Source of the DNA: Prolixibacteraceae bacterium
Lineage (GTDB): Bacteria > Bacteroidota > Bacteroidia > Bacteroidales > Prolixibacteraceae
Direction: 5' to 3'
Assembly: GCA_028683385.1 (NCBI GenBank)
Contig: JAQUIJ010000013.1
Coordinates: forward strand, 62,001 to 126,000
DNA: 64,000 bases
A model generated the notes under the pieces. That model did not search any database, had not been told where the DNA came from, and was given only the letters and a program-made list of their open reading frames with translations. Shown one piece after another: positions 50,300 through 60,727 of this stretch. A program made the translations under genes and the position numbers. Position 1 is the first letter of the stretch; each line of letters starts with the position of its first letter.

Positions 50300-50833
50300 T
50301 CAGGAGACATGAAGCAACTGACTGTATAACTCGTAATTCTCCTGATCGAAGCAAACAAAATAAACCTGTTTGATCTGATCGTTTTCGGATAAAAACTGAG
50401 TTACCGCTTCAATGGCAATGTGCGACGCGTTCTCCTTCGGAAAGCCATAAACACCAGTGCTGATGTTCGGAAAAGCAATCGTTTCAATGCCATTTTCGAC
50501 AGCCATTTTAAGCGAATTCAAATAGGCATCCCAGAGCAAGTCCGCTTCGCTATTATTACCACCATGCCAAACCGGGCCAACGGTGTGAACAACAAATTTC
50601 GCCGGAAGATTTCCTCCGGAAGTGATCACCGCCTGACCAGTTTCGCATCGCCCTTGCCTTACAACAATCTCGCGGCATTCGGCTAAAATAGCTGGTCCAC
50701 CGGCACGATGAATGGCGCCATCTACACCTCCACCACCCATCAGCGACGAGTTTGCTGCATTCACAATCGCATCCACTTCGAGTTTGGTGATGTCGCCCTG
50801 AATTAGCGTTATTCGGCTAAGAATTGGGTCCAT
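50300..50833 (-). CDS. Macro-domain O-acetyl-ADP-ribose deacetylase
   Basis: A 177-residue protein with the macro-domain ADP-ribose pocket: [27 protein letters not shown] (about 19-45), [30 protein letters not shown]. This is the YmdB-type hydrolase of O-acetyl-ADP-ribose and mono-ADP-ribosyl ester bonds, cytoplasmic. A -7 motif sits 18-25 bases upstream. A cluster of short palindromic repeats begins just upstream. Confidence 0.93.
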
Positions 50834-51080: not shown

Positions 51081-52484
51081 TTACTTTTTCGCCATTTTCA
51101 AGGCTTCAGTAGTTGTATAGTATTTCGTAATCATGTTTGGAACTTCCCATTCCGGCAATTTACCATCTTTCAAGTATTGCAGGTATTGTTCGGTTACCTG
51201 ACCGAAATGAGCTTCATGACCAACTTTAAACGAATCAGGAATTTCGACAACCCAACTTTTATCAGCTAGTTTGCTTAATTTTAAACCTGCGTATTTAGCC
51301 GAAATAGTCTCTTCTACAGCTTTTTTCAGGCTGGATTCGAATGCGGCTAAATCAGTTGCGCCAGTTGCTTCAATGTAAACAGTTGGTTTGTATTTTTCTT
51401 CTTTTGTTTGTTTAATCAACACGTTGCACAATTTCCCACGCATCAGGCAATAATGCGAATCTCCGGCACCTTCCGGCGCTTCAAAATCCCACAAAGTAGT
51501 CACCTTGACAACTTTGTCTTTCAACTTATGTTCCATTTCACCGTTGGCATATACTTTTAGCTTGCCATCAGCAACATCTTTCTTTAGGAATTCAGGAAAT
51601 TCTTTCATTCCGGTTACTTTCTCGAATTGCTCCGGAGAAAAATCGGTTGTCCATCGTTTGGCAGAAATCATCTGAACATCGGTTTTATTCAGGATGACTT
51701 CAGGGAAAGCACTCCATTGAATCAAATCGACCAGATGTGTGGCAACATCGGCATTTCCTTCGCCCTGCTGGGTAATATCGAAAAACCATGCCGGACGTTT
51801 CAACGCAACGCCCGAAACTACTTTGCAGAAATTATGCACACTTTCGATAACAACAGCAGGTTCATCAACAGTGCCATCTACCAGTCCTCCAAAAACATCA
51901 GGCGTGTTGGCCAGTTCGCGCTGAACGATGTTGGTAATTTCATGACGTTCAGTCATAATATCGTAAAGCAAAACTCCCTTTTCAGCAGCCGTTTTGAAAG
52001 CCTGCTCTAAAAGAGGAAAAGCTTCAGGAGTAATTACCATGGGTTTATCAGCAAAAACATTGATCCCAGCCTCAACTGCTTTCTGAATGTACTCGGTCTT
52101 TTTTGCATTGTTCCCAGCTACCATCATTACGTTTCCAGGTTTTTCGGCCAACATTTTTTCGAGGTAATCGGTACCTGTATATACTTTTTCGACCCAAGCT
52201 GTTGGATTGTCGGTGCGTTTATTAAATGCTTCGATGCGTCCCAGATGTTGAGCTACATCGTCACCTTCAGGAGCATACACATAAACCGTCGGATCGATTT
52301 GGTCGTACATCGATTTTTGGATGAGAGCCGCATGAAAATGGCCGGGATCGAGAGTCATTAGTTTCACTTCGCCTTTGACGCCGGTAAACTTTGGAGTCGC
52401 TTTTTCGACACCTTTTTGACCGCCACCGGCACAAGCGGATAAAATTGTTGCCATTGCCAGCACAGGAATTAAGTTTTTATTCAT
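51081..52484 (-). CDS. Gfo/Idh/MocA-family oxidoreductase, lipoprotein
   Basis: A 467-residue protein with a lipoprotein signal (MNKNLIPVLAMATILSAC, Cys18). The Rossmann part has VKLMTLDPGHFHAALIQKSMY instead of a canonical GxGxxG, then NVMMVAGNNAKKTEYI and the family's DKPMVITPEAFPLLEQAF (the K-P motif). The C-terminal half has the PF16490-type oxidoreductase C-terminal pattern, including DITQQGEGNADVATHLVDLIQW. Family members oxidise or reduce sugars with NAD(P); this membrane-anchored version with a modified nucleotide loop may work in the periplasm (inference). It is the last gene of the 51-60 kb cluster. Confidence 0.85.
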   Translation of the reverse strand: MNKNLIPVLAMATILSACAGGGQKGVEKATPKFTGVKGEVKLMTLDPGHFHAALIQKSMYDQIDPTVYVYAPEGDDVAQHLGRIEAFNKRTDNPTAWVEKVYTGTDYLEKMLAEKPGNVMMVAGNNAKKTEYIQKAVEAGINVFADKPMVITPEAFPLLEQAFKTAAEKGVLLYDIMTERHEITNIVQRELANTPDVFGGLVDGTVDEPAVVIESVHNFCKVVSGVALKRPAWFFDITQQGEGNADVATHLVDLIQWSAFPEVILNKTDVQMISAKRWTTDFSPEQFEKVTGMKEFPEFLKKDVADGKLKVYANGEMEHKLKDKVVKVTTLWDFEAPEGAGDSHYCLMRGKLCNVLIKQTKEEKYKPTVYIEATGATDLAAFESSLKKAVEETISAKYAGLKLSKLADKSWVVEIPDSFKVGHEAHFGQVTEQYLQYLKDGKLPEWEVPNMITKYYTTTEALKMAKK

Positions 52485-52519
52485 GGTTTAATTATTAGGG
52501 TTGTCTGATTTATTGTCCA

Positions 52520-52527
52520 CAAAAATA
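52520..52527 (-). promoter_or_regulatory. Candidate -7 box for the first Gfo/Idh/MocA gene
   Basis: The minus strand reads TATTTTTG, just downstream of the DUF2264 stop. Initiation near 52514 gives a leader of about 30 bases to the ATG at 52484. It would let the oxidoreductase be expressed apart from DUF2264. Confidence 0.5.
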
Positions 52528-52549
52528 AAACTTTCCGCCAAAGAAAAAC

Positions 52550-54604
52550 TTAGCACGACCGTTTTCCATCGATGTCTTTAAAATCAATTTCATACTTTTC
52601 ATCATTGTAAAGAGTGATCGTTGCACCCAAAGCCGAATATTCCGGTGTAATGTCCATGATCTGAATATCCTTTATTGGCGACAATTCTTCTTCTGTCCAT
52701 TCCTGATTATCCATTCGATGTATCATCACGCTAATCATCAGTTCCATTGGTGGGTTTTTAGCCTTGCGTTTTTTATAGGCGTAGATCACTGTGCTTTCGT
52801 CAGCCTCAGCATTTCGGTCGGAGTGTACCAAACTATCCAGCTTATCCCATCCATGATAGGTTATCAAGGCAACTCGTCGTCCCGGGATAGAGGCAGTAAT
52901 CACCTTTTTGTCACCAAGTTCGAATTGATTAACAACAGCTTTCTGGCTACCGATATGCGGCATTCCGAAATGCCCAAGCGTTAATTCGTATTCAAAAGCC
53001 AGCCGCGAACGATCGACACGAATTACTCCGCCCGGAATGGTAATTTCGGCCAAATCGATGATATACCCTACCCCATTGTTTGGCGGACGCCGCATGATGG
53101 CCTGACGATACAATACATCTTTGCGCACGCCGTTAAAAAACATGCTTTGCGAAATGGTAAACGAACGGTTCTTTTCTGAATCGTTTTCCACTTTTTTGCC
53201 GGTGAGGTAAAAATTCACATCGTCGCCACGCACATCGCGCGGATCCTGGCTTCGGTAGCTGTATTCCATCGAGGTTCCGCCCTGCGGATTGTGATCTTCC
53301 CAGGGGAAATGCGTGTTGTAAACAAGCTTCGAATAATTTGGATCGTCGTAATAAACCTTGCCCGGAATAATTTCGGAAGCACCGGTTTTTCCGTGGTTCA
53401 CAAGCACCAGTCCAGGGCTTTCAAGAACTACTTTTTTCGATTCGTCTCCAAGTGTTTCCCAGTCTCCTTCATTTTCTTTGGCAGTCCAGAACGGCGAATC
53501 GTTGGGCAAAGCGAGGCAGATAAATGGCAAAAACATCAGGAAAGGACTGGCAGCACAACTGTAGTTTTGCACCATGTATTCCTTCTGTCCGTAAAATCCC
53601 AAACTTGGAATATCGTTGTCATAAAATTCTTCGCGAGTAACAAATTGCAGCAACGAGCCTGAACAAAGCCTCCGTGCCCAACCCGCATCCAGCAAGGTCT
53701 TATCTTTCAACATAAAGGCAACGGGAAACGCTCCTGAAACCCATGTGCGGTAACAGATACTACGCGACCACATATTGATGTAACCATCACGTCCGAAGAA
53801 ACTGGTTAGCGATTCCATTAATTTTTGAGCCGACTTTTCAATGATAGCAGCCACTTCAGGATAATATTCGTCGCCAAACGTCCTGTTCCAGATGGTGGTA
53901 TAAACGATAAACAGGCTTATTGAATAGTAATTGTAGGTTTGTTCCAAATACCAGCCATTCCCTGAATGATAGGAAGCCACCCACAGAAGATGACTTTTCA
54001 ATAGTTCATCGTCGATTTCGTAGCCGTATTTTTTCAGGAACGAAAGGGTGATGATGTTAAAAATCCGCCAGTTGTTTTGTGTGGTTCGATGATGAGCCCA
54101 TTTCGAAATAGTAACAACCATCTCTTCGCGCTGCTTTTCGGTATAAGTGAACCAAATGGTTTCGGGCATTAAAAGCAGGGTTTTAAACAGACCTCCAAAC
54201 TCGCAGGTAAACTGGTAATTGGAATCGGGCAATTCTTCAGGTAGAGGCAGTGAGTTAGCATGACCGGGAGTGAAGGCATTATAGATTTGCAAACTGTAAT
54301 AATCGCGAAGATTGATACCCTTAATTGTAGTTTCTGGATCAATGTGAATTAGCGGTCCTGCAAGGGTGAATGTTCTTTCCAATGCTTCGAACTCCAGGGA
54401 ACGGTAACGCCAGTCAGGAGCATTGGGCTCCGGATAGGTCTTACCAGGAACCGATGGAAAAGTCAATGGTGTATCAATGGAGCCAACATGTTCAAAAGTC
54501 CGTTCCAACAGGTACTTTGCCAATTCGATGTAATGTTTTTTCGACATCCCGGTGTATGGACTCAACTCCATATCGGGACTTTGAACTTCAAAAGCTTTCT
54601 TCAC
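52550..54604 (-). CDS. DUF2264 protein
   Basis: A 684-residue protein without a signal peptide. It matches DUF2264: a helical (alpha/alpha)-barrel-like region (about 15-400) with PFYLERTFEH-type and TWVSGAFPVAFMLKDKTLLDAGWARR segments, then a beta-sandwich (about 400-684) with TEYSYRSQDPRDVRGDD. This fold resembles that of polysaccharide lyases and unsaturated glucuronyl hydrolases, but no catalytic pair is established. In Bacteroidota it lies near sugar-degradation genes. Its 5' leader holds a stem-loop (54644-54672). Substrate unknown. Confidence 0.85.
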   Translation of the reverse strand: MKKAFEVQSPDMELSPYTGMSKKHYIELAKYLLERTFEHVGSIDTPLTFPSVPGKTYPEPNAPDWRYRSLEFEALERTFTLAGPLIHIDPETTIKGINLRDYYSLQIYNAFTPGHANSLPLPEELPDSNYQFTCEFGGLFKTLLLMPETIWFTYTEKQREEMVVTISKWAHHRTTQNNWRIFNIITLSFLKKYGYEIDDELLKSHLLWVASYHSGNGWYLEQTYNYYSISLFIVYTTIWNRTFGDEYYPEVAAIIEKSAQKLMESLTSFFGRDGYINMWSRSICYRTWVSGAFPVAFMLKDKTLLDAGWARRLCSGSLLQFVTREEFYDNDIPSLGFYGQKEYMVQNYSCAASPFLMFLPFICLALPNDSPFWTAKENEGDWETLGDESKKVVLESPGLVLVNHGKTGASEIIPGKVYYDDPNYSKLVYNTHFPWEDHNPQGGTSMEYSYRSQDPRDVRGDDVNFYLTGKKVENDSEKNRSFTISQSMFFNGVRKDVLYRQAIMRRPPNNGVGYIIDLAEITIPGGVIRVDRSRLAFEYELTLGHFGMPHIGSQKAVVNQFELGDKKVITASIPGRRVALITYHGWDKLDSLVHSDRNAEADESTVIYAYKKRKAKNPPMELMISVMIHRMDNQEWTEEELSPIKDIQIMDITPEYSALGATITLYNDEKYEIDFKDIDGKRSC

Positions 54605-54643
54605 GTGAAAATATTTAAGTTATTAATTTGATATCTGCTTTAG

Positions 54644-54672
54644 GCGCTAAGCAGTTTAGAACCGCTTAGCGC
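54644..54672 (-). promoter_or_regulatory. Stem-loop in the leader of the DUF2264 gene
   Basis: GCGCTAAGC (54644-54652) pairs perfectly with GCTTAGCGC (54664-54672) across an 11-base loop. It ends 40 bases before the ATG at 54604 and could be a translation-control hairpin, an operator, or a 5' stabiliser. No T-run. Confidence 0.45.
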
Positions 54673-54775
54673 AGTGCACTTTTGCAAACACTTTATATGC
54701 CACTACCATTCCGTCCGAAAGAATATTTTGCATTGAAACACACTTTGGCGCGGACGGCATATTTTTTCACATTTT

Positions 54776-54890
54776 GTCCGTTGGCTGAAGCCAACGGCAA
54801 AGGATAGTGCTACGAATATGCAATTTAGCCAATCAGAGCAATATCCCTGCCTTCGGCTGGTAGGCTTTGCCGTCACATTTATGTGACGAA
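54776..54890 (+). repeat. Composite palindromic repeat, copy B
   Basis: Contains CCGTTGGCT-GA-AGCCAACGG, then CGGCAAAGGATAG, AGAGCAATAT and CGTCACAT-TT-ATGTGACG. The same blocks in the same order (on the opposite strand) form copy A at 35745-35840. The flanking sequences differ. Confidence 0.7.
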
Positions 54891-54905
54891 CAGGGATTTT
54901 TGCGA

Positions 54906-56285
54906 TTATTTCCTCTTGATATTACTAATTCCATAAGGGAAACGTTCCGGACGGCTGAGCATGGCATTAGCCTGATCGTCATTTTCAAAACGTTCGGTTC
55001 CCGGATTCCACTGTAATTTGCGGTTCAGTTTCATGGCAATATGAGTAATCAAACAAATGGTACATGCACGGTGCCCGATTTCAGCCGGAGAAATAGGTTC
55101 TTTTTTCGTTTGGATACAATCGAGCCAGTTGCCATGCTGCTCGTCACTTTTATACAAGTGAATTTCGTTTTCGCCGATCACCGATTCCAGAATTTTCGGA
55201 TCGCTGGCATCCAAAGCCTTCGCTCTTTGTCCTTTTGAAACTGGATCGCTGGACGAAGCCATATAGTCGCCCCTCGAAACAAAGATCCAGCCTTCGGTTC
55301 CCTCGTAGCGAATTCCATTCGGATAGCCGCCACTGGTGTACATGGTTATTCCGTTTGCATATTCGGCTTTGGCCATGAAATCGCCATGAACATTCCACAA
55401 ACCTGATTTCGGAAATTCGGCTACTGCCTGAATCGAAATCGGGCCAGTCAATTCAGTATCCATCCCCCATGCAGCTGAATCGTAATGGTGCTGTCCCCAA
55501 CCGGTGATCATTCCGGCACCAAATTGCTCGCGACGTAACCAACCCGGACGATCGTATCCTTTTTGAGGATGAACACCAATTTCGGTATAAGGTACATATG
55601 GTGTTTCGCCCAACCACATGTCGTAGTTGAACCCTTTTGGTATCACCATTTCAGCCGCTTCAGGACCAGACGGATCGCCAGGCAAACCAATTTTTACGGT
55701 ATGCAAACGACCAATGCGGCCGTTTCGAACCAATTCGGCAGCTACACGAAACTGTGTTGACGAACGTTGCTGAGTTCCCACCTGAAGTACAATTCCTTTT
55801 TCTTTCACAATGTCGGCCATGATCCGGCCTTCAGTTACTGTTAATGAAGTAGGTTTCTGCACATAAACATGTTTGCCGGCCAAAGCAGCTTCGATGGCAG
55901 GTTGTGCATGCCAATGGTCGGGCGTACTAATCACCACCGCGTCAATGTCTTTATTCAGGAGCATTTCTTTGTAATCGTCGTACATTTTCACATTGACGTA
56001 ATTATCCTGACCAGTTTTCTTTTTGTAGTAATCTTCCACCAGTTTTTTGCCGTCAGCCATTCGGTTTTTATCGAGGTCGCTTACCGCAATATACCGGGCA
56101 ATATCATGCTGTAAAGTCCCAGGCATGTCATGACCTTGGGCAATACGGCCACAACCGATCTGTCCGATATTAATTTTGTTACTCGGAGCATTTTTCCCCA
56201 TCACACTCGATGGAATAATGGTTGGTAAAATGATGGCTCCAGCTGTTCCGGCACTCACTTTTTTTAAAAAATTTCGTCGTTCCAT
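54906..56285 (-). CDS. Gfo/Idh/MocA-family oxidoreductase with Tat-like signal
   Basis: A 459-residue protein. The N-terminus MERRNFLKKVSAGTAGAIIL contains the twin-arginine motif RRNFLKK followed by a hydrophobic run, so export folded by Tat is likely. The Rossmann motif is NIGQIGCGRIAQGHDMPG, and the conserved K-P region is GKHVYVQKPTSLTVTEGRIM. The C-terminal alpha/beta domain (about 170-430) includes DMWLGETPYVPYTEIGVHPQ. Tat-exported, cofactor-bound oxidoreductases of this type act on sugars in the periplasm. 30 bases separate it from the ThuA gene upstream, so probably one operon. Confidence 0.9.
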   Translation of the reverse strand: MERRNFLKKVSAGTAGAIILPTIIPSSVMGKNAPSNKINIGQIGCGRIAQGHDMPGTLQHDIARYIAVSDLDKNRMADGKKLVEDYYKKKTGQDNYVNVKMYDDYKEMLLNKDIDAVVISTPDHWHAQPAIEAALAGKHVYVQKPTSLTVTEGRIMADIVKEKGIVLQVGTQQRSSTQFRVAAELVRNGRIGRLHTVKIGLPGDPSGPEAAEMVIPKGFNYDMWLGETPYVPYTEIGVHPQKGYDRPGWLRREQFGAGMITGWGQHHYDSAAWGMDTELTGPISIQAVAEFPKSGLWNVHGDFMAKAEYANGITMYTSGGYPNGIRYEGTEGWIFVSRGDYMASSSDPVSKGQRAKALDASDPKILESVIGENEIHLYKSDEQHGNWLDCIQTKKEPISPAEIGHRACTICLITHIAMKLNRKLQWNPGTERFENDDQANAMLSRPERFPYGISNIKRK

Positions 56286-56315
56286 AAGATATAGTTATTG
56301 ATTAGGTTGTTAAGT

Positions 56316-57233
56316 TTAAAATTTAGCAGGAGAATCGTCGCATTTCAAATCGCCCAACACATATTGAGCACCATCCAGATAAAACTTCAAAAGCCTTGCG
56401 TCTTCAAAGCTTTGAGCATTGTGTGAGGGAGAGACATAGAAAACCCTTCCCTTTCCAAATCGTTTGATCCAGGATACATATTTGATCTTCTCATCAATTT
56501 CTTTGGTCTTTTGGGTCAGTTTCGAAGTGTCCATGTACAATAAAGGCCTGAAATTCTTTTGGGTGTACGCTTTATTGAACAAATAAGGTTCATCGGTATG
56601 CATGAACGATTTCCCGCCAAATCCTTTAACCAAAGGATGATTCGGTTCGCACAATTCGAGTGTTACCTCCTGTTGTGCCGGATGATAATCGAAACTTCCG
56701 CCAACCATTTCGCTGAAAGCCATTGAATTGTTCTGCATCACAATCGCTCCATGGATAACCATCAACCCACCACCTTTTCTGACATACTCAATCAGGTTCG
56801 ATTCGAGTTCGGCCGCTTTCTTTTTACGCTGGTCGTCGGTCAGACTTTTATCCTGATCCAATACATCGAGCAACAAATCCCTTCGCGGACCAACCGAGCA
56901 GTTATTATTCAGAACAACAGCATCGTAATTCTTAAGGTTCTTCTTTTCAAACTTGTAAATGTCTTTGCTGAATTCCACTTCAAAAGCCCCGGTTTTTTCG
57001 GCCAAAACTTTCATAACCGCATCTGTATGAGGAACTACCCAATGATCGAAACCTGTAAACAAACTAAATTCCAACACTTTGTGATGTTTTTTAGCTTGAA
57101 CTTCAGCTTTAGCCGGAGCCAGTTTTTCAATCTTCTGTACCCACTCATCTGTCAAGGTAAATTCTTTCAATTGTGCTTTAACTGAACAAAAAGAAAGAAT
57201 AATTGAAACAGTAATTACAATTTTTTTGTACAT
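56316..57233 (-). CDS. ThuA-domain protein
   Basis: A 305-residue secreted protein (signal 1-20, ending SVKA). The ThuA/class-I-glutamine-amidotransferase-like domain includes EFSLFTGFDHWVVPHTDAVM, NYDAVVLNNNC, VRKGGGLMVIHGAIVMQN, GGSFDYHPAQQEVTLEL and SWIKRFGKGRVFYVSPSHNAQ. In rhizobia ThuA works with a Gfo/Idh-type ThuB in trehalose/maltitol utilisation. Here it lies between a DUF6807 gene and a Gfo/Idh oxidoreductase, matching that kind of partnership. The substrate in this organism is not known. Confidence 0.88.
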   Translation of the reverse strand: MYKKIVITVSIILSFCSVKAQLKEFTLTDEWVQKIEKLAPAKAEVQAKKHHKVLEFSLFTGFDHWVVPHTDAVMKVLAEKTGAFEVEFSKDIYKFEKKNLKNYDAVVLNNNCSVGPRRDLLLDVLDQDKSLTDDQRKKKAAELESNLIEYVRKGGGLMVIHGAIVMQNNSMAFSEMVGGSFDYHPAQQEVTLELCEPNHPLVKGFGGKSFMHTDEPYLFNKAYTQKNFRPLLYMDTSKLTQKTKEIDEKIKYVSWIKRFGKGRVFYVSPSHNAQSFEDARLLKFYLDGAQYVLGDLKCDDSPAKF

Positions 57234-57248
57234 GGTTTTGGCTTTGGT

Positions 57249-58568
57249 TCACTTTTTAACTGCACTGTTCACAATCGCAACCTGTGGTGGATTGGCAAAT
57301 GCCTGCCAGTAATTTTCAGCTTCTTCAGGGGTCATTTTCCCGTCGAAAATAACCAGTCGATAGCGGAGTGTGTAATCATTACCTTTATCAATCTTCCAAT
57401 CTTTATGCCTGATTGGACAGAACTCGAAATACACATCGCCGCGTCCATTCTGGTCTTCAGGCCAAACACGCATTGGTTCCGGATGCATCCGGTTGGCCGG
57501 AAAACTCATGAATAATATTCCTGAACGACCTTCTTTCGTAGCTGATTCTCCTTCGATAATACACCATCTGGCATTGCTGCCATCCGCATTCTTACGAACT
57601 TTCCCTTCCGAAGTTAAAACAGAACTGTTGTCTTTGTTCCATTTTTCGGTAGCGCGATATCCTATTCCACCACCGTAACGATAGGCTGCCAACAAAATTC
57701 CTGAATCGAGCGGTGTATTCAAAGTGCTAATGTAATCGAACAGATAGCGCTGATTGGCAATATTCCAGACGCGGACATCAAACAATTCATTCATGGCAAC
57801 AGCATCGCCGCCTTTAGCTCCAAAATCAATGTGTTCCTGAAGTGATTTGAATCCGGTGTAAACAGGGCCTTCAACTTGCGAAACCAAACCGGCAAAACGC
57901 ACAGTTCCTTCACCTTTCATCAAGTTCCAGAAATCAACTTCACGCTTACCAATGAAGGTTAAAGTCCATGGATTCCAGATTCCATAATGGTGATAATGGT
58001 CGGGTGCTTGAATGCGCGTTAACACTTCACCTTCCGGAGAATAAACAGGATGGATGAAAGCAGAACGCTTGTAAAACGGACTGACTCCTTTTGGCGGATT
58101 TACAGTTTCGATCTGGTAACTCAAAATTGGCTTTTCACCAGCCTTCAGGGTTAAAGCTCCATCTTTCTGGATTGCACTGATTGCTGATTTGAATGTTTGT
58201 GGATTTAAAGTTTTCCGGAATACAAAAATACGTTTGGAATTTTTAAGAGTTTGTCCGCTTAAGACAAACCATACTTTGGCTCCAGCAGAAGTTTCCAATT
58301 GAAACGGAACAGCAACTTCGGTCTTCCCTTTGATCTCGAAAAGCGCCAGTTTTAATGAATCAGCATTGTAATTCAATTGGTCTATTGAAAGGCTAACCGG
58401 GCAATCCGATCTGTCAGTGTTTCCGGCCGAAACTTCAAATTTCAGAAGGTCTTGTGCTGATACAGAAAAAGAAAAAAACGATAGCAGAAAAACGAAAAGA
58501 GGTATATAAAATGTTGGCAGCTTCTTTTTGTCCTTTAGGACATGAATGTCAATAGCAGGAAAAACCAT
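57249..58568 (-). CDS. DUF6807 (PmoA-like) secreted protein
   Basis: I take the ATG at 58568 as start (an ATG at 58577 is also in frame), giving about 439 residues. A signal peptide follows (KLPTFYIPLFVFLLSFF, ending VSAQ). The body matches DUF6807/PmoA: FIHPVYSPEGEVLTRIQAPDHYHHYGIW, KREVDFWNLMKGEGTVRFAG, SFPANRMHPEPMRVWPEDQNGRGDVYFEFCPI. Its open frame continues upstream to 58850 without similarity. The start lies inside the palindromic repeat copy D, which codes for the residues VLKDK. Function unknown; often found with sugar-degradation genes. 15 bases to ThuA. Confidence 0.8.
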   Translation of the reverse strand: MVFPAIDIHVLKDKKKLPTFYIPLFVFLLSFFSFSVSAQDLLKFEVSAGNTDRSDCPVSLSIDQLNYNADSLKLALFEIKGKTEVAVPFQLETSAGAKVWFVLSGQTLKNSKRIFVFRKTLNPQTFKSAISAIQKDGALTLKAGEKPILSYQIETVNPPKGVSPFYKRSAFIHPVYSPEGEVLTRIQAPDHYHHYGIWNPWTLTFIGKREVDFWNLMKGEGTVRFAGLVSQVEGPVYTGFKSLQEHIDFGAKGGDAVAMNELFDVRVWNIANQRYLFDYISTLNTPLDSGILLAAYRYGGGIGYRATEKWNKDNSSVLTSEGKVRKNADGSNARWCIIEGESATKEGRSGILFMSFPANRMHPEPMRVWPEDQNGRGDVYFEFCPIRHKDWKIDKGNDYTLRYRLVIFDGKMTPEEAENYWQAFANPPQVAIVNSAVKK

Positions 58569-58672
58569 CGACAACATTTGTCCGTCAGGACATTGACCAG
58601 ACATAATTAATTCCCTACGGAAAATAATTTGCATTCCGACAAATTCTATTGACATGAATCTCCTATGGAGAA
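58527..58672. repeat. Cluster of short palindromic repeats, copy D (overlaps the DUF6807 start)
   Basis: Contains TGTCC-TTTA-GGACA, TGTCC-GTCA-GGACA, TTCCCTACGGAA and TCTCCTATGGAGA. These are the same dyad types as in copy C at 50875-51019. It spans the 5' end of the DUF6807 reading frame and the spacer before the URO-D-like gene. Confidence 0.65.
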
Positions 58673-58704
58673 GATTTAAAAAGTTGCTTAAAAAAATCTT
58701 CATT

Positions 58705-59745
58705 TTATTGGTTTTCCAGTTTTTGTATGGTTTTGATAAACGCCTGCATGTTTTCGGTTGCCACATTCTGCGGAACTCCGCCACCACACGACCAGATGAT
58801 TCCTTTTTTATCCTGAACTTCGTTCCACATCTTTTCGGTTTGTGCAACAACTTCTTCAGGAGAAGCTGCCATCAAGACATCGCGCGGCGGAAGATTTCCC
58901 AGAAGCGCCACTTCAGATCCGGCCAATTCGCGTATTTCGTTGATGGAATGTTCGAAGCTGAAATTAAACAGATTCACTCCGATTCCTTTCAGAAAAGGAG
59001 TACTTATTAATCCCTGTGCATCGTTGTGAAAAAATCTAACTTTGGTTTCAAAAGCAGAGAAAATTGGAGTCAGGTATGGCACCACAAATTCGCGGCATTC
59101 GTCTTCGCCCACAAAACCAACAATATCGTCCAAAACCAGAATTCCCTCAATTGAAGGAAACTGTTCTTTTTGATAGCGAAGCCAATCCACCGTAAATTCA
59201 GAAATAACTTTCAGCAGTTGATGAGCTTCTTCCGGATTCATCATCAGGGCCATCATAAATTCGGTGGTTCCCATCAGGAACGAAGCAATATTCAGCGGTC
59301 CGCGGGCAATCGCAAATTTGATTTCGTGCCCAATTTTGTGAATTTCAGGTTCGAATTCTTTCAGTCGCTGAATAATAAACGGCAATAAACCGTCCAGCTT
59401 TGGATTCGGCTTTTTAATGTCGGCAATATCTTCATTCGAATGAATGGTTTTATCGGCGTGAGGCAGGTTGCTTTCGTACCAAACCTGTTTGGCGCCAAAA
59501 GCCGATGGCTCACTACACATGCCGTATTCAGACCAAAACCCAGGTAAAAAAATCGTATCAGGGAAAGTATCAATGGCCTTTTTATTCGTCTCGAACCACT
59601 GCTTGCCACTGGCGTAATAATCGAGCGTAGAAATTCCAGCCCAGCCAGGAAGCCAGGGGCTATCAATAATAAATCCAACAGGTGCCGGACCCTTGTGCTT
59701 TCGATTGATAACATCAACCAGCAAATTCCACTGTTCGTTAGTCAT
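58705..59745 (-). CDS. Uroporphyrinogen decarboxylase-family protein (MtaA/CmuA-like)
   Basis: A 346-residue cytoplasmic protein with a URO-D-type TIM-barrel. The core includes ILVLDDIVGFVGEDECREFVVPYL and the C-terminal CGGGVPQNVATENMQAFI, which resembles the S-G-C-G-x-P-x-x-T-x-x-E-N pattern of MtaA-type methyltransferases. The first zinc motif, H-x-C in MtaA, reads HND here (His240-Asn-Asp242); the late cysteine is Cys320. No corrinoid protein is adjacent. First gene of the minus-strand catabolic cluster, divergent from the AraC gene; a methyl transfer or decarboxylation role in sugar use is possible. Confidence 0.8.
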   Translation of the reverse strand: MTNEQWNLLVDVINRKHKGPAPVGFIIDSPWLPGWAGISTLDYYASGKQWFETNKKAIDTFPDTIFLPGFWSEYGMCSEPSAFGAKQVWYESNLPHADKTIHSNEDIADIKKPNPKLDGLLPFIIQRLKEFEPEIHKIGHEIKFAIARGPLNIASFLMGTTEFMMALMMNPEEAHQLLKVISEFTVDWLRYQKEQFPSIEGILVLDDIVGFVGEDECREFVVPYLTPIFSAFETKVRFFHNDAQGLISTPFLKGIGVNLFNFSFEHSINEIRELAGSEVALLGNLPPRDVLMAASPEEVVAQTEKMWNEVQDKKGIIWSCGGGVPQNVATENMQAFIKTIQKLENQ

Positions 59746-59767
59746 AGGTATTCATTTAGTAGTATTT

Positions 59768-59775
59768 CAAAAGTA
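59768..59775 (-). promoter_or_regulatory. Candidate -7 box for the URO-D-like gene
   Basis: The minus strand reads TACTTTTG. Initiation near 59762 leaves about 17 bases to the ATG at 59745. It lies in the 109-base gap shared with the AraC promoter, so one operator could control both. Confidence 0.5.
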
Positions 59776-59823
59776 ACTGTTTCACGACAGTTTATCCAGT
59801 ACTATTTTAACGAGCATTTATAC

Positions 59824-59831
59824 TATTTTTG
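59824..59831 (+). promoter_or_regulatory. Candidate -7 box for the AraC gene
   Basis: TATTTTTG, a perfect TAnnTTTG match. Initiation near 59837 gives a leader of about 18 bases before the ATG at 59855. Divergent from the box at 59768. Confidence 0.55.
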
Positions 59832-59854
59832 CAGAATCTTAAATACTTCCGACA

Positions 59855-60727
59855 ATGAAAATTATGCACGAACAGGTGAGTTTTGCACCGCGCACCATGC
59901 TGAAGGTCAAGTGGGACGACTTTCCACACTTTACCTATCCATGGCATTTTCACAGCGAATTCGAGATTGTTTATGTACTGAAAAGTTCGGGAAAACGTTT
60001 TGTGGCCGACAGCGTTGAATCGTTTCAGGAAGGTGACATCACACTGATGGGCAGCTATCTTCCCCATTTCTGGAAAAGCGACGTACCGGACGGAATCGAA
60101 GCAGGAAGCCGTGTAAACGCGATTGTCGTTCAGTTTCACAAAGACTTTTTTCGGGATGAAATCAATTCGTATCCTGAATTTCATAGCATCAATGAACTCC
60201 TGAAAAGAGCCGCCCGCGGAATTCATTTCAGCAAAACTTCGGGAGAAAAAATTGGACGAATGCTTAAGCGATTACTGAAACTGAATGGATTGGAACGAAT
60301 GCTCTATTTCATCAAACTGATGGACACCATGGGTCGAACAGAAAACTATCGGATTTTGGCCAGTAAAGCGTACCTTTTGGAGGAGCACAAGGAACTGAAC
60401 AACCGGCTCGACAAAATCATGCATTTCATTAACACCAATTACCAACGGAAAATTACTCAAGAGGAGGTTGCCACCAAAATTGGGATGACTACGGCAGCTT
60501 TTTGCCGCTATTTCAAGGAAAAAACGGGCAAAGGATTTATCTTTTTTGTAAATGAAATGCGCATTGGCTATGCCTGTAAACTCCTGATCGAAAACCACCT
60601 GTCGATTTCTCAGATTTGCTTTGAGTGCGGATTCAACAACATTTCGAATTTTAACCGGATGTTCAAGCGGCAAACCGGATATACGCCGGGCGAGTATCAG
60701 CAACAATTTATCAAGGCAACTGTTTAG
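59855..60727 (+). CDS. AraC-family transcriptional regulator with cupin sensor
   Basis: A 290-residue protein. The N-terminal half (about 15-145) is a cupin-like sugar-binding domain (HFTYPWHFHSEFEIVYVLKSSG, FQEGDITLMGSYLPHFWKSD). The C-terminus (about 190-290) has two helix-turn-helix units: ITQEEVATKIGMTTAAFCRYFKE and LSISQICFECGFNNISNFNRMFK, ending RQTGYTPGEYQQQF. It is the divergent neighbour of the URO-D/DUF6807/ThuA/Gfo-Idh cluster and the only regulator there, so it probably senses the cluster's substrate and activates it. Confidence 0.95.
   Translation: MKIMHEQVSFAPRTMLKVKWDDFPHFTYPWHFHSEFEIVYVLKSSGKRFVADSVESFQEGDITLMGSYLPHFWKSDVPDGIEAGSRVNAIVVQFHKDFFRDEINSYPEFHSINELLKRAARGIHFSKTSGEKIGRMLKRLLKLNGLERMLYFIKLMDTMGRTENYRILASKAYLLEEHKELNNRLDKIMHFINTNYQRKITQEEVATKIGMTTAAFCRYFKEKTGKGFIFFVNEMRIGYACKLLIENHLSISQICFECGFNNISNFNRMFKRQTGYTPGEYQQQFIKATV

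Follow-up and report, generated by a model that had tools for sequence, protein, structure and literature searches.

A conserved gene cluster with two exported oxidoreductases and a DUF2264 protein as a candidate D-glucuronate operon in Prolixibacteraceae

We describe a cluster of seven genes at positions 51081 to 60727 of a 64,000-nucleotide stretch of contig JAQUIJ010000013.1 (the window), one part of the 5.9-Mb genome of a Prolixibacteraceae bacterium (assembly GCA_028683385.1). The cluster codes for an AraC-family regulator and, divergently from it, a URO-D-superfamily protein, a DUF6807 protein, a ThuA-domain protein, a Gfo/Idh/MocA oxidoreductase exported by twin-arginine translocation (Tat) (GfoTat; 54906..56285, minus strand), a long-form DUF2264 protein, and a lipoprotein Gfo/Idh/MocA-like protein (GfoLip; 51081..52484, minus strand). 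We propose, with confidence somewhat better than even, that this is an operon for the release and catabolism of a hexuronate, D-glucuronate, in which redox chemistry in the periplasm would be followed by a cytosolic DUF2264 step. A hexuronate is the most likely substrate because the genes that accompany the module belong to glucuronate and mannonate catabolism. The arrangement is more than chance, since it is found again in the genus and across the order.

A first-pass annotation of this DNA had read the cluster as redox-based sugar catabolism. Oxidation-based sugar chemistry is indeed plausible, since the genes stay together, the Gfo motif residues are kept, and DUF6807 is a habitual partner of Gfo genes (20 of 23 picked loci), and we infer that the redox idea survives. 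A neutral disaccharide as the likeliest substrate does not, given the genes that travel with the module, and the business of the cluster is most likely glucuronate.

Conservation of the module and its uronate partners

All seven genes that the annotation named are borne out by the open reading frames (ORFs), at the coordinates it gave, and by Pfam, for which only matches over the curated cutoffs were counted. Neighborhood comparison, which it had set as the way to refute the grouping, finds the genes kept together in the genus and in the order. Same-genus genomes retain the order AraC / UROD-DUF6807-(ThuA or short DUF6807)-GfoTat, with UROD missing in locus L062, and AraC takes the same divergent position in many relatives. 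GfoTat orthologs at an E value of ≤1e-130 are present in 26 of 393 genomes of the order, the window's own included. The 57 GfoTat loci compared are 56 distinct ones, as L210 is the same contig as L105, with an identical GfoTat.

The position held by DUF2264 in the window is occupied by uronate enzymes in several relatives. Among same-genus loci without a long DUF2264, a D-mannonate oxidoreductase alone follows GfoTat in L162 and L165, and the oxidoreductase together with UxuA does so in L164, L166, L167, L168, and L175; in L169 and L176, GfoTat is directly followed by GfoLip. DUF2264 and the SDR-type D-mannonate oxidoreductase occur together in L083 and L084, and the oxidoreductase lies inside the module operon of the same-genus genome at L063. 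The NCBIfam scores of this enzyme are 347 (L164), 371 (L167), and 358 (L063) against a cutoff of 281, with the other same-genus SDR identities at this position assigned by BLAST only. UxuA scores as an equivalog at 490 (L164) and 500 (L167) against a cutoff of 200, and all five copies at the DUF2264 position pass Pfam UxuA. Of the UxaC-UxuB-UxuA pathway, the SDR-type D-mannonate oxidoreductase and UxuA are in the operon of same-genus relatives; the window operon has no uronate enzyme of this pathway, and DUF2264 holds the slot.

Beyond the genus, 26 GfoTat loci were compared (L208-L232 plus L173), and DUF2264, UxuA, or the SDR is present in eight of them (L209, L210, L212, L217, L219, L221, L226, and L229); the SDR or UxuA assignment was confirmed for eight hits, in L209, L212, L217, L219, L221, and L226. 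Of 13 full-length UxuA genes in these outside-genus genomes, four are on the same examined stretch as GfoTat, for which the Poisson chance is 1.2e-6 (24 kb in 4.2 Mb) when genomes are treated as independent.

Beside the module in L104 are a glucuronate isomerase (660 versus a cutoff of 387), a D-mannonate oxidoreductase (368 versus 281), and UxaE. Genes neighboring the module in L104, L113, and L119 form a string that includes a nickel-dependent hexonate epimerase, for which the model score is from L119, and a 6-phosphogluconate dehydrogenase, for which it is from L113; the remaining assignments of these two are by BLAST. We note that a string of SDR D-mannonate oxidoreductase, sugar-kinase-like gene, 6-phosphogluconate dehydrogenase, and nickel-dependent hexonate epimerase recurs (L104:452-8286, L113:3302-7295, L119:425-1711, L212:705-5561, and L178:1259-4656), although the dehydrogenase was not seen in the L178 copy. 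This mannonate-gluconate string suggests a second exit, in which glucuronate would pass through mannonate and gluconate to 6-phosphogluconate.

Uronate genes elsewhere in the genome

The window's own genome carries UxaC, the SDR D-mannonate oxidoreductase, the hexonate epimerase, and a gene resembling 2-keto-3-deoxygluconate (KDG) kinase (below its model's cutoff) together on contig C28 (L178), as well as a KduI equivalog (441 versus a cutoff of 250), and no UxuA hit was found in it. A second, short DUF2264 gene (L080; G000:C33:159964-162962) is flanked by the KduI equivalog on one side and, on the other, by an SDR that scores as gluconate 5-dehydrogenase, surroundings that are those expected of a uronate dehydratase.

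Across 23 genomes of the genus, UxuA (counted above 300 bits) is present in one of the nine with a long DUF2264 and in nine of the 14 without (one-sided Fisher test, 0.017); at Pfam's own cutoff G005 is added, making 10 of 14. Because the best-quality genomes do not bear this exclusion out, as described below, we treat it only as a hint that DUF2264 may stand in for UxuA.

The long DUF2264 protein

The DUF2264 gene (52550..54604, minus strand) has a GTG start and codes for a 684-residue protein matching PF10022 at 217 bits (cutoff, 25). The first-pass annotation had taken DUF2264 as a family of unknown chemistry and as a possible chain-cleaving enzyme, neither of which agrees with recent work. 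In 2025, PF10022, formerly GH154, was proposed to be a family of beta-glucuronate 4,5-dehydratases; in that report, Bacteroides caccae BcGDH forms a 4,5-unsaturated uronate from chondrosine and shows no hydrolase activity, BT_3677 has the same dehydratase activity on methyl glucuronide, two members are noted as once described as glycosidases, and Y229, R285, and Y289 are the proposed catalytic residues of BcGDH (PMC12269599).

Three solved sequences match the window DUF2264; two carry the name glucuronate dehydratase and the third that of beta-galactosidase. Y227, R281, and Y285 of the window protein correspond to the BcGDH residues, with the residue offset worked out by hand and the Tyr229 equivalence taken across a 3-residue gap from a multiple alignment in which BcGDH was not included. 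Among 16 aligned homologs, which go down to 19% identity, none departs from these three residues, and the same holds for all 32 long forms.

An AlphaFold model (mean pLDDT, 74; pTM, 0.67) has whole-chain matches to PL17 alginate lyase, PL12 heparinase III, and PL35 GAGase VII, with a loose superposition (TM score about 0.4), and its toroid aligns with the dehydratase 9o4u (TM by target, 0.65). All four of these enzymes act on uronates by beta-elimination. The protein thus shares with BcGDH and BT_3677 the Pfam family, the (alpha/alpha) toroid fold, and the catalytic Tyr/Arg/Tyr, and its two-domain length is like that of BT_3677. It differs in lacking an evident signal peptide, its kinship to BcGDH is only distant, and its subfamily was not seen beside GH88 or GH105 among 80 loci (with one GH88 reference).

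Judged by eye from aligned sequences, no signal peptide is evident in the window copy or in its relatives of 74 to 95% identity; relatives near 30 to 32% identity carry a hydrophobic N-terminal extension. The window DUF2264 therefore should not encounter a periplasmic chain. It probably works in the cytosol, and we predict it to be a cytosolic uronate 4,5-dehydratase. That it might instead cleave glycans, as a beta-glucuronidase or polymer lyase, would fit the whole-chain likeness to uronate lyases and the former description of two family members as glycosidases. Against this are the re-assignment of the family, with BcGDH showing no hydrolase activity and both BcGDH and BT_3677 being dehydratases (PMC12269599), together with the retained catalytic residues and the signal peptide missing by eye. 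We thus reject the glycosidase or chain-cleaver role, which is very unlikely. Structure prediction, which the annotation had put forward as a check, was run for both DUF2264 (best resembling uronate lyases and 9o4u) and DUF6807 (best resembling PL26).

Distribution and surroundings of long DUF2264 genes

The best 80 of 334 relatives in a scan of named genomes, 69 to 95% identical to the window copy, are mostly from Bacteroidota, with others in bins labeled Chloroflexi, Spirochaetes, Ignavibacteria, and Oscillospiraceae. The copies in L125, L132, L143, and L154 (Chloroflexi bins), L155-L157 and L161 (Spirochaetes bins), and L151 are 69 to 77% identical to that of the window, and the occurrence in other phyla suggests either horizontal transfer or mis-binned contigs. 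A GfoTat ortholog is present in 17 of the 80 loci. Among named carriers, Tangfeifania diversioriginum DSM 27063 and Draconibacterium sediminis combine the module with DUF2264, whereas Mariniphaga sediminis has DUF2264 but not the module.

A Pfam tally of neighbors covered 125 of 327 proteins (same strand, 200 to 900 amino acids, within 4 kb), with one protein per cluster and eight loci excluded as repeats, and gave no single dominant partner among the 25 of 166 families listed. Counts include GH43 (4), MFS (4), sigma-70 region 4 (4), GH10 (3), 3keto-disac_hyd (2), URO-D (2), and GH67 (1). At least one relative of four xylan-type reference enzymes (GH10, GH43, acetyl esterase, and glucuronoyl esterase) occurs in 12 of the 80 loci, and the remaining loci have no recurrent carbohydrate context among labeled neighbors. 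The surroundings of L091 were considered as a uronate operon, wrongly: two neighbors resembled, with scores below cutoff, a D-galactonate-type transporter and an enzyme of keto-acid cleavage, and for the remaining two this threshold gave no match. Genes near L115, L121, and L122 may be of rhamnose type, a guess from one aldolase/SDR fusion scored in L122.

The URO-D-superfamily protein and the AraC regulator

The URO-D-superfamily gene (58705..59745, minus strand; PF01208, 120 bits) is near GfoTat in 26 of 57 loci. Its product falls far short of the equivalog cutoff for HemE (TIGR01464; 55 versus 303 bits) and of that for MtaA/CmuA (TIGR01463; 56 versus 235 bits), and D206, D207, H240, N241, and D242 are invariant in 26 of 26 aligned sequences, with C320 in 23 of 26. 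The AraC-family gene (59855..60727, plus strand) matches HTH_18 at 79.5 bits.

The URO-D protein and the xylan-type neighbors bear on whether the target is the 4-O-methyl-glucuronate of glucuronoxylan, with DUF2264 removing methanol from C4 and the URO-D protein handling the methyl group. The 12 loci with xylan-type enzymes would agree with this, as would the GH67 alpha-glucuronidase encoded in the window's genome and the methylcobamide methyltransferases found among distant characterized URO-D relatives. However, the xylan enzymes are in none of the 17 module-bearing loci among the 80, the URO-D scores to methyltransferase models are far under cutoff, and the URO-D neighbors in the window are AraC and DUF6807 (a corrinoid protein was not searched for). 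Moreover, the 4-O-methyl-glucuronate of xylan is alpha-linked, whereas the characterized DUF2264-family members act on beta-glucuronides. Glucuronoxylan is thus quite unlikely as the target.

The exported oxidoreductases

GfoTat has the GFO_IDH_MocA and C2 domains by Pfam and passes the Tat signal model TIGR01409 (17.7 versus 16.7). In an alignment of 60 proteins, R3, R4, K144-P145, H266, and D269 are each kept in at least 95%. GfoLip (PF16490 Oxidoreduct_C domain, 397 bits, plus a partial GFO_IDH_MocA match) has the lipobox LSAC, read directly in the sequence, with the Cys conserved in at least 95% of 30 homologs. The Lys-Pro and Asp/His positions of Gfo/Idh proteins, which we take to be catalytic, are retained in both enzymes. 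In GfoLip, the match to the Gfo/Idh Rossmann profile begins only at position 36, and residues 46 to 52 read DPGHFHA at the site of the usual glycine-rich loop, with P47-A52 conserved in homologs.

The nearest solved relatives of GfoTat are 8tdf and 8tdh (E about 1e-22); it also matches 8tdi, named glucuronide-3-dehydrogenase (E = 8e-8), and dozens of other Gfo/Idh chains. Among NCBIfam families, GfoTat scores highest with that of the BT_2158 glycoside 3-dehydrogenase (NF058561), at 133 bits against a cutoff of 750, a score that rules out membership. GfoLip has one solved homolog at an E value of ≤0.01 in the Protein Data Bank (PDB), 4oo3 (E = 1.6e-172), named only hypothetical protein, and matches none of the characterized NCBIfam Gfo families. 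In L173 (9417-10907), two copies of the Tat-type Gfo gene flank a sulfatase gene, an arrangement that points to sulfation of the substrate at that locus.

These matches recall BT_2156-BT_2160 of Bacteroides, reportedly a 3-keto-glycoside pathway (NCBIfam BT_2158 and BT_2159 families), which likewise has two exported Gfo/Idh/MocA enzymes and two further exported proteins. The cluster might therefore handle a neutral glycoside by the same oxidative logic, with the uronate genes as bystanders, and the BT_2158 family as best match of GfoTat, the pairing of DUF6807 with Gfo genes at other loci, and the link of ThuA to disaccharide oxidation in rhizobia all favor this. Yet the score of GfoTat is far below the cutoffs of characterized families and GfoLip matches none, the cluster has DUF6807 and ThuA in place of the DUF1080 lyase (PF06439), absent among nine window proteins scanned, D-mannonate oxidoreductase and UxuA stand beside or inside the module in several genera, and DUF2264 retains the uronate-dehydratase residues. 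A neutral glycoside is on balance unlikely. The likeness to rhizobial ThuAB, drawn by domain only, is that a ThuA-domain protein adjoins a Gfo/Idh/MocA oxidoreductase, but the window ThuA is exported, has uronate partners, and has DUF6807 as an interchangeable slot-mate.

DUF6807 and its slot-mate

The DUF6807 gene (57249..58568, minus strand; PF14100, 208 bits) probably codes for an exported protein. Its start codon is uncertain: the ORF, 57249-58850, overlaps the end of the URO-D gene, and the real start is probably near 58568, with several ATG codons between 58568 and 58703, upstream of a signal-peptide-like stretch. DUF6807 has invariant histidines. It has no sequence relative in the PDB. 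An AF2 model (pLDDT, 86; pTM, 0.89) has as its best Foldseek match the PL26 exo-rhamnogalacturonan lyase 5xqg (E = 1.3e-7), although with only 8 to 10% identity and TM scores by query of 0.53 to 0.60 over the listed PL26 chains, and covering part of the larger enzyme. Glycosidase sandwiches and galactose mutarotase rank lower, and the resemblance of the model to PL26 and to mutarotase-like sandwiches is suggestive only. In 23 further loci, picked among DUF6807 hits and not independent in that they include orthologous groups, a Gfo/Idh/MocA gene is directly adjacent on the same strand in 20, on the other strand in one, and absent in two.

The ThuA-domain gene (56316..57233, minus strand; PF06283, 117 bits; cutoff, 33.4) codes for a protein with a signal-peptide-like N terminus, and in other genomes either a divergent ThuA or an additional, short DUF6807 stands at its position. 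Among 47 loci with GfoTat and DUF6807, 16 have ThuA alone, 22 short DUF6807 alone, none both, and nine neither (Fisher, 1.4e-6, ignoring kinship). This mutual exclusion predicts the same job for both, and we read DUF6807 and its slot-mate as enzymes acting on the Gfo-oxidized sugar.

Flanking genes and the lack of a SusC/SusD pair

Pfam assigns none of the seven cluster proteins to SusC, SusD, or a glycoside-hydrolase family. The annotation was right that no recognized glycoside hydrolase is present and that the SusC/SusD pair of a polysaccharide utilization locus is missing from this cluster; as a property of the system the latter does not extend, since a SusC relative is within 12 kb of GfoTat in 13 of 57 loci. 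A macro-domain gene (window 50300-50833) comes after the cluster, as it does in L062, L082, L084, L097, L167, L169, and L176.

Discussion

A periplasmic oxidation-elimination route is plausible for this cluster. In the periplasm, the two exported Gfo/Idh/MocA enzymes would oxidize and then re-reduce a glucuronide, with DUF6807 and its slot-mate, be it ThuA or the second DUF6807, performing a bond-breaking elimination or hydration on the oxidized sugar. The freed uronate would enter the cytosol through a carrier, where the long DUF2264 could eliminate at C4-C5. The product would rearrange to 5-keto-4-deoxyuronate, to be converted to KDG by KduI, encoded elsewhere in the genome, and an SDR dehydrogenase. 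Sister genomes with fructuronate reductase (D-mannonate oxidoreductase), with or without UxuA, in the DUF2264 slot would also take glucuronate towards KDG, and for this reason DUF2264 looks like an alternative dehydration step.

Several observations weigh against this proposal. GfoTat is only distantly related to known glycoside 3-dehydrogenases (133 versus 750 bits), Pfam finds no transporter among the seven cluster proteins, and no uronate enzyme is seen in 18 of the 26 GfoTat loci from other genera, many of their contigs being short. No GfoTat ortholog is seen in 63 of the 80 long-DUF2264 loci, again with many short contigs, and the enzyme is therefore not bound to the module; the xylan-type carbohydrate-active enzymes of 12 such loci are never together with GfoTat (0 of 80). 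Of the 47 loci that combine GfoTat with DUF6807, nine lack both ThuA and a short DUF6807 on the stretch examined, and in most of these GfoTat directly adjoins DUF6807, so the slot may be empty. When only the 16 genomes of best quality are counted, the UxuA/DUF2264 exclusion loses significance (one of five versus six of 11; one-sided, 0.23), and the genomes compared are related. Characterized DUF2264 proteins use terminal glucuronosides and are not known to use free glucuronate, and BcGDH requires a subsequent GH88 (PMC12269599). A GH88 relative was found by BLAST, with one GH88 reference, in none of the 80 long-DUF2264 loci; a GH88 gene is present in L077, a more distant DUF2264 homolog locus.

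A wider proposal, which we hold as doubtful, is that these genes represent an undescribed uronate pathway, in which DUF6807 and ThuA would be interchangeable catalysts of a periplasmic oxidation-elimination that needs no glycoside hydrolase to free glucuronate, and the long-form DUF2264 of the cytosol would be a monosaccharide-level uronate eliminase (acting perhaps on 4-O-methyl-glucuronate, with loss of methanol) that replaces mannonate dehydratase. In the open-access literature searched, DUF6807 is named in one paper, as no more than a Pfam number, and its accession PF14100 is in two, with the old label methane oxygenase in one of these. It gains a testable substrate class, the glycosides of glucuronic acid. 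A DUF2264 subfamily that is cytosolic and stands away from GH88 and GH105 would broaden the 2025 re-assignment of GH154, and, if the proposal is true, glycosidase-free release of glucuronate would be encoded across Bacteroidales.

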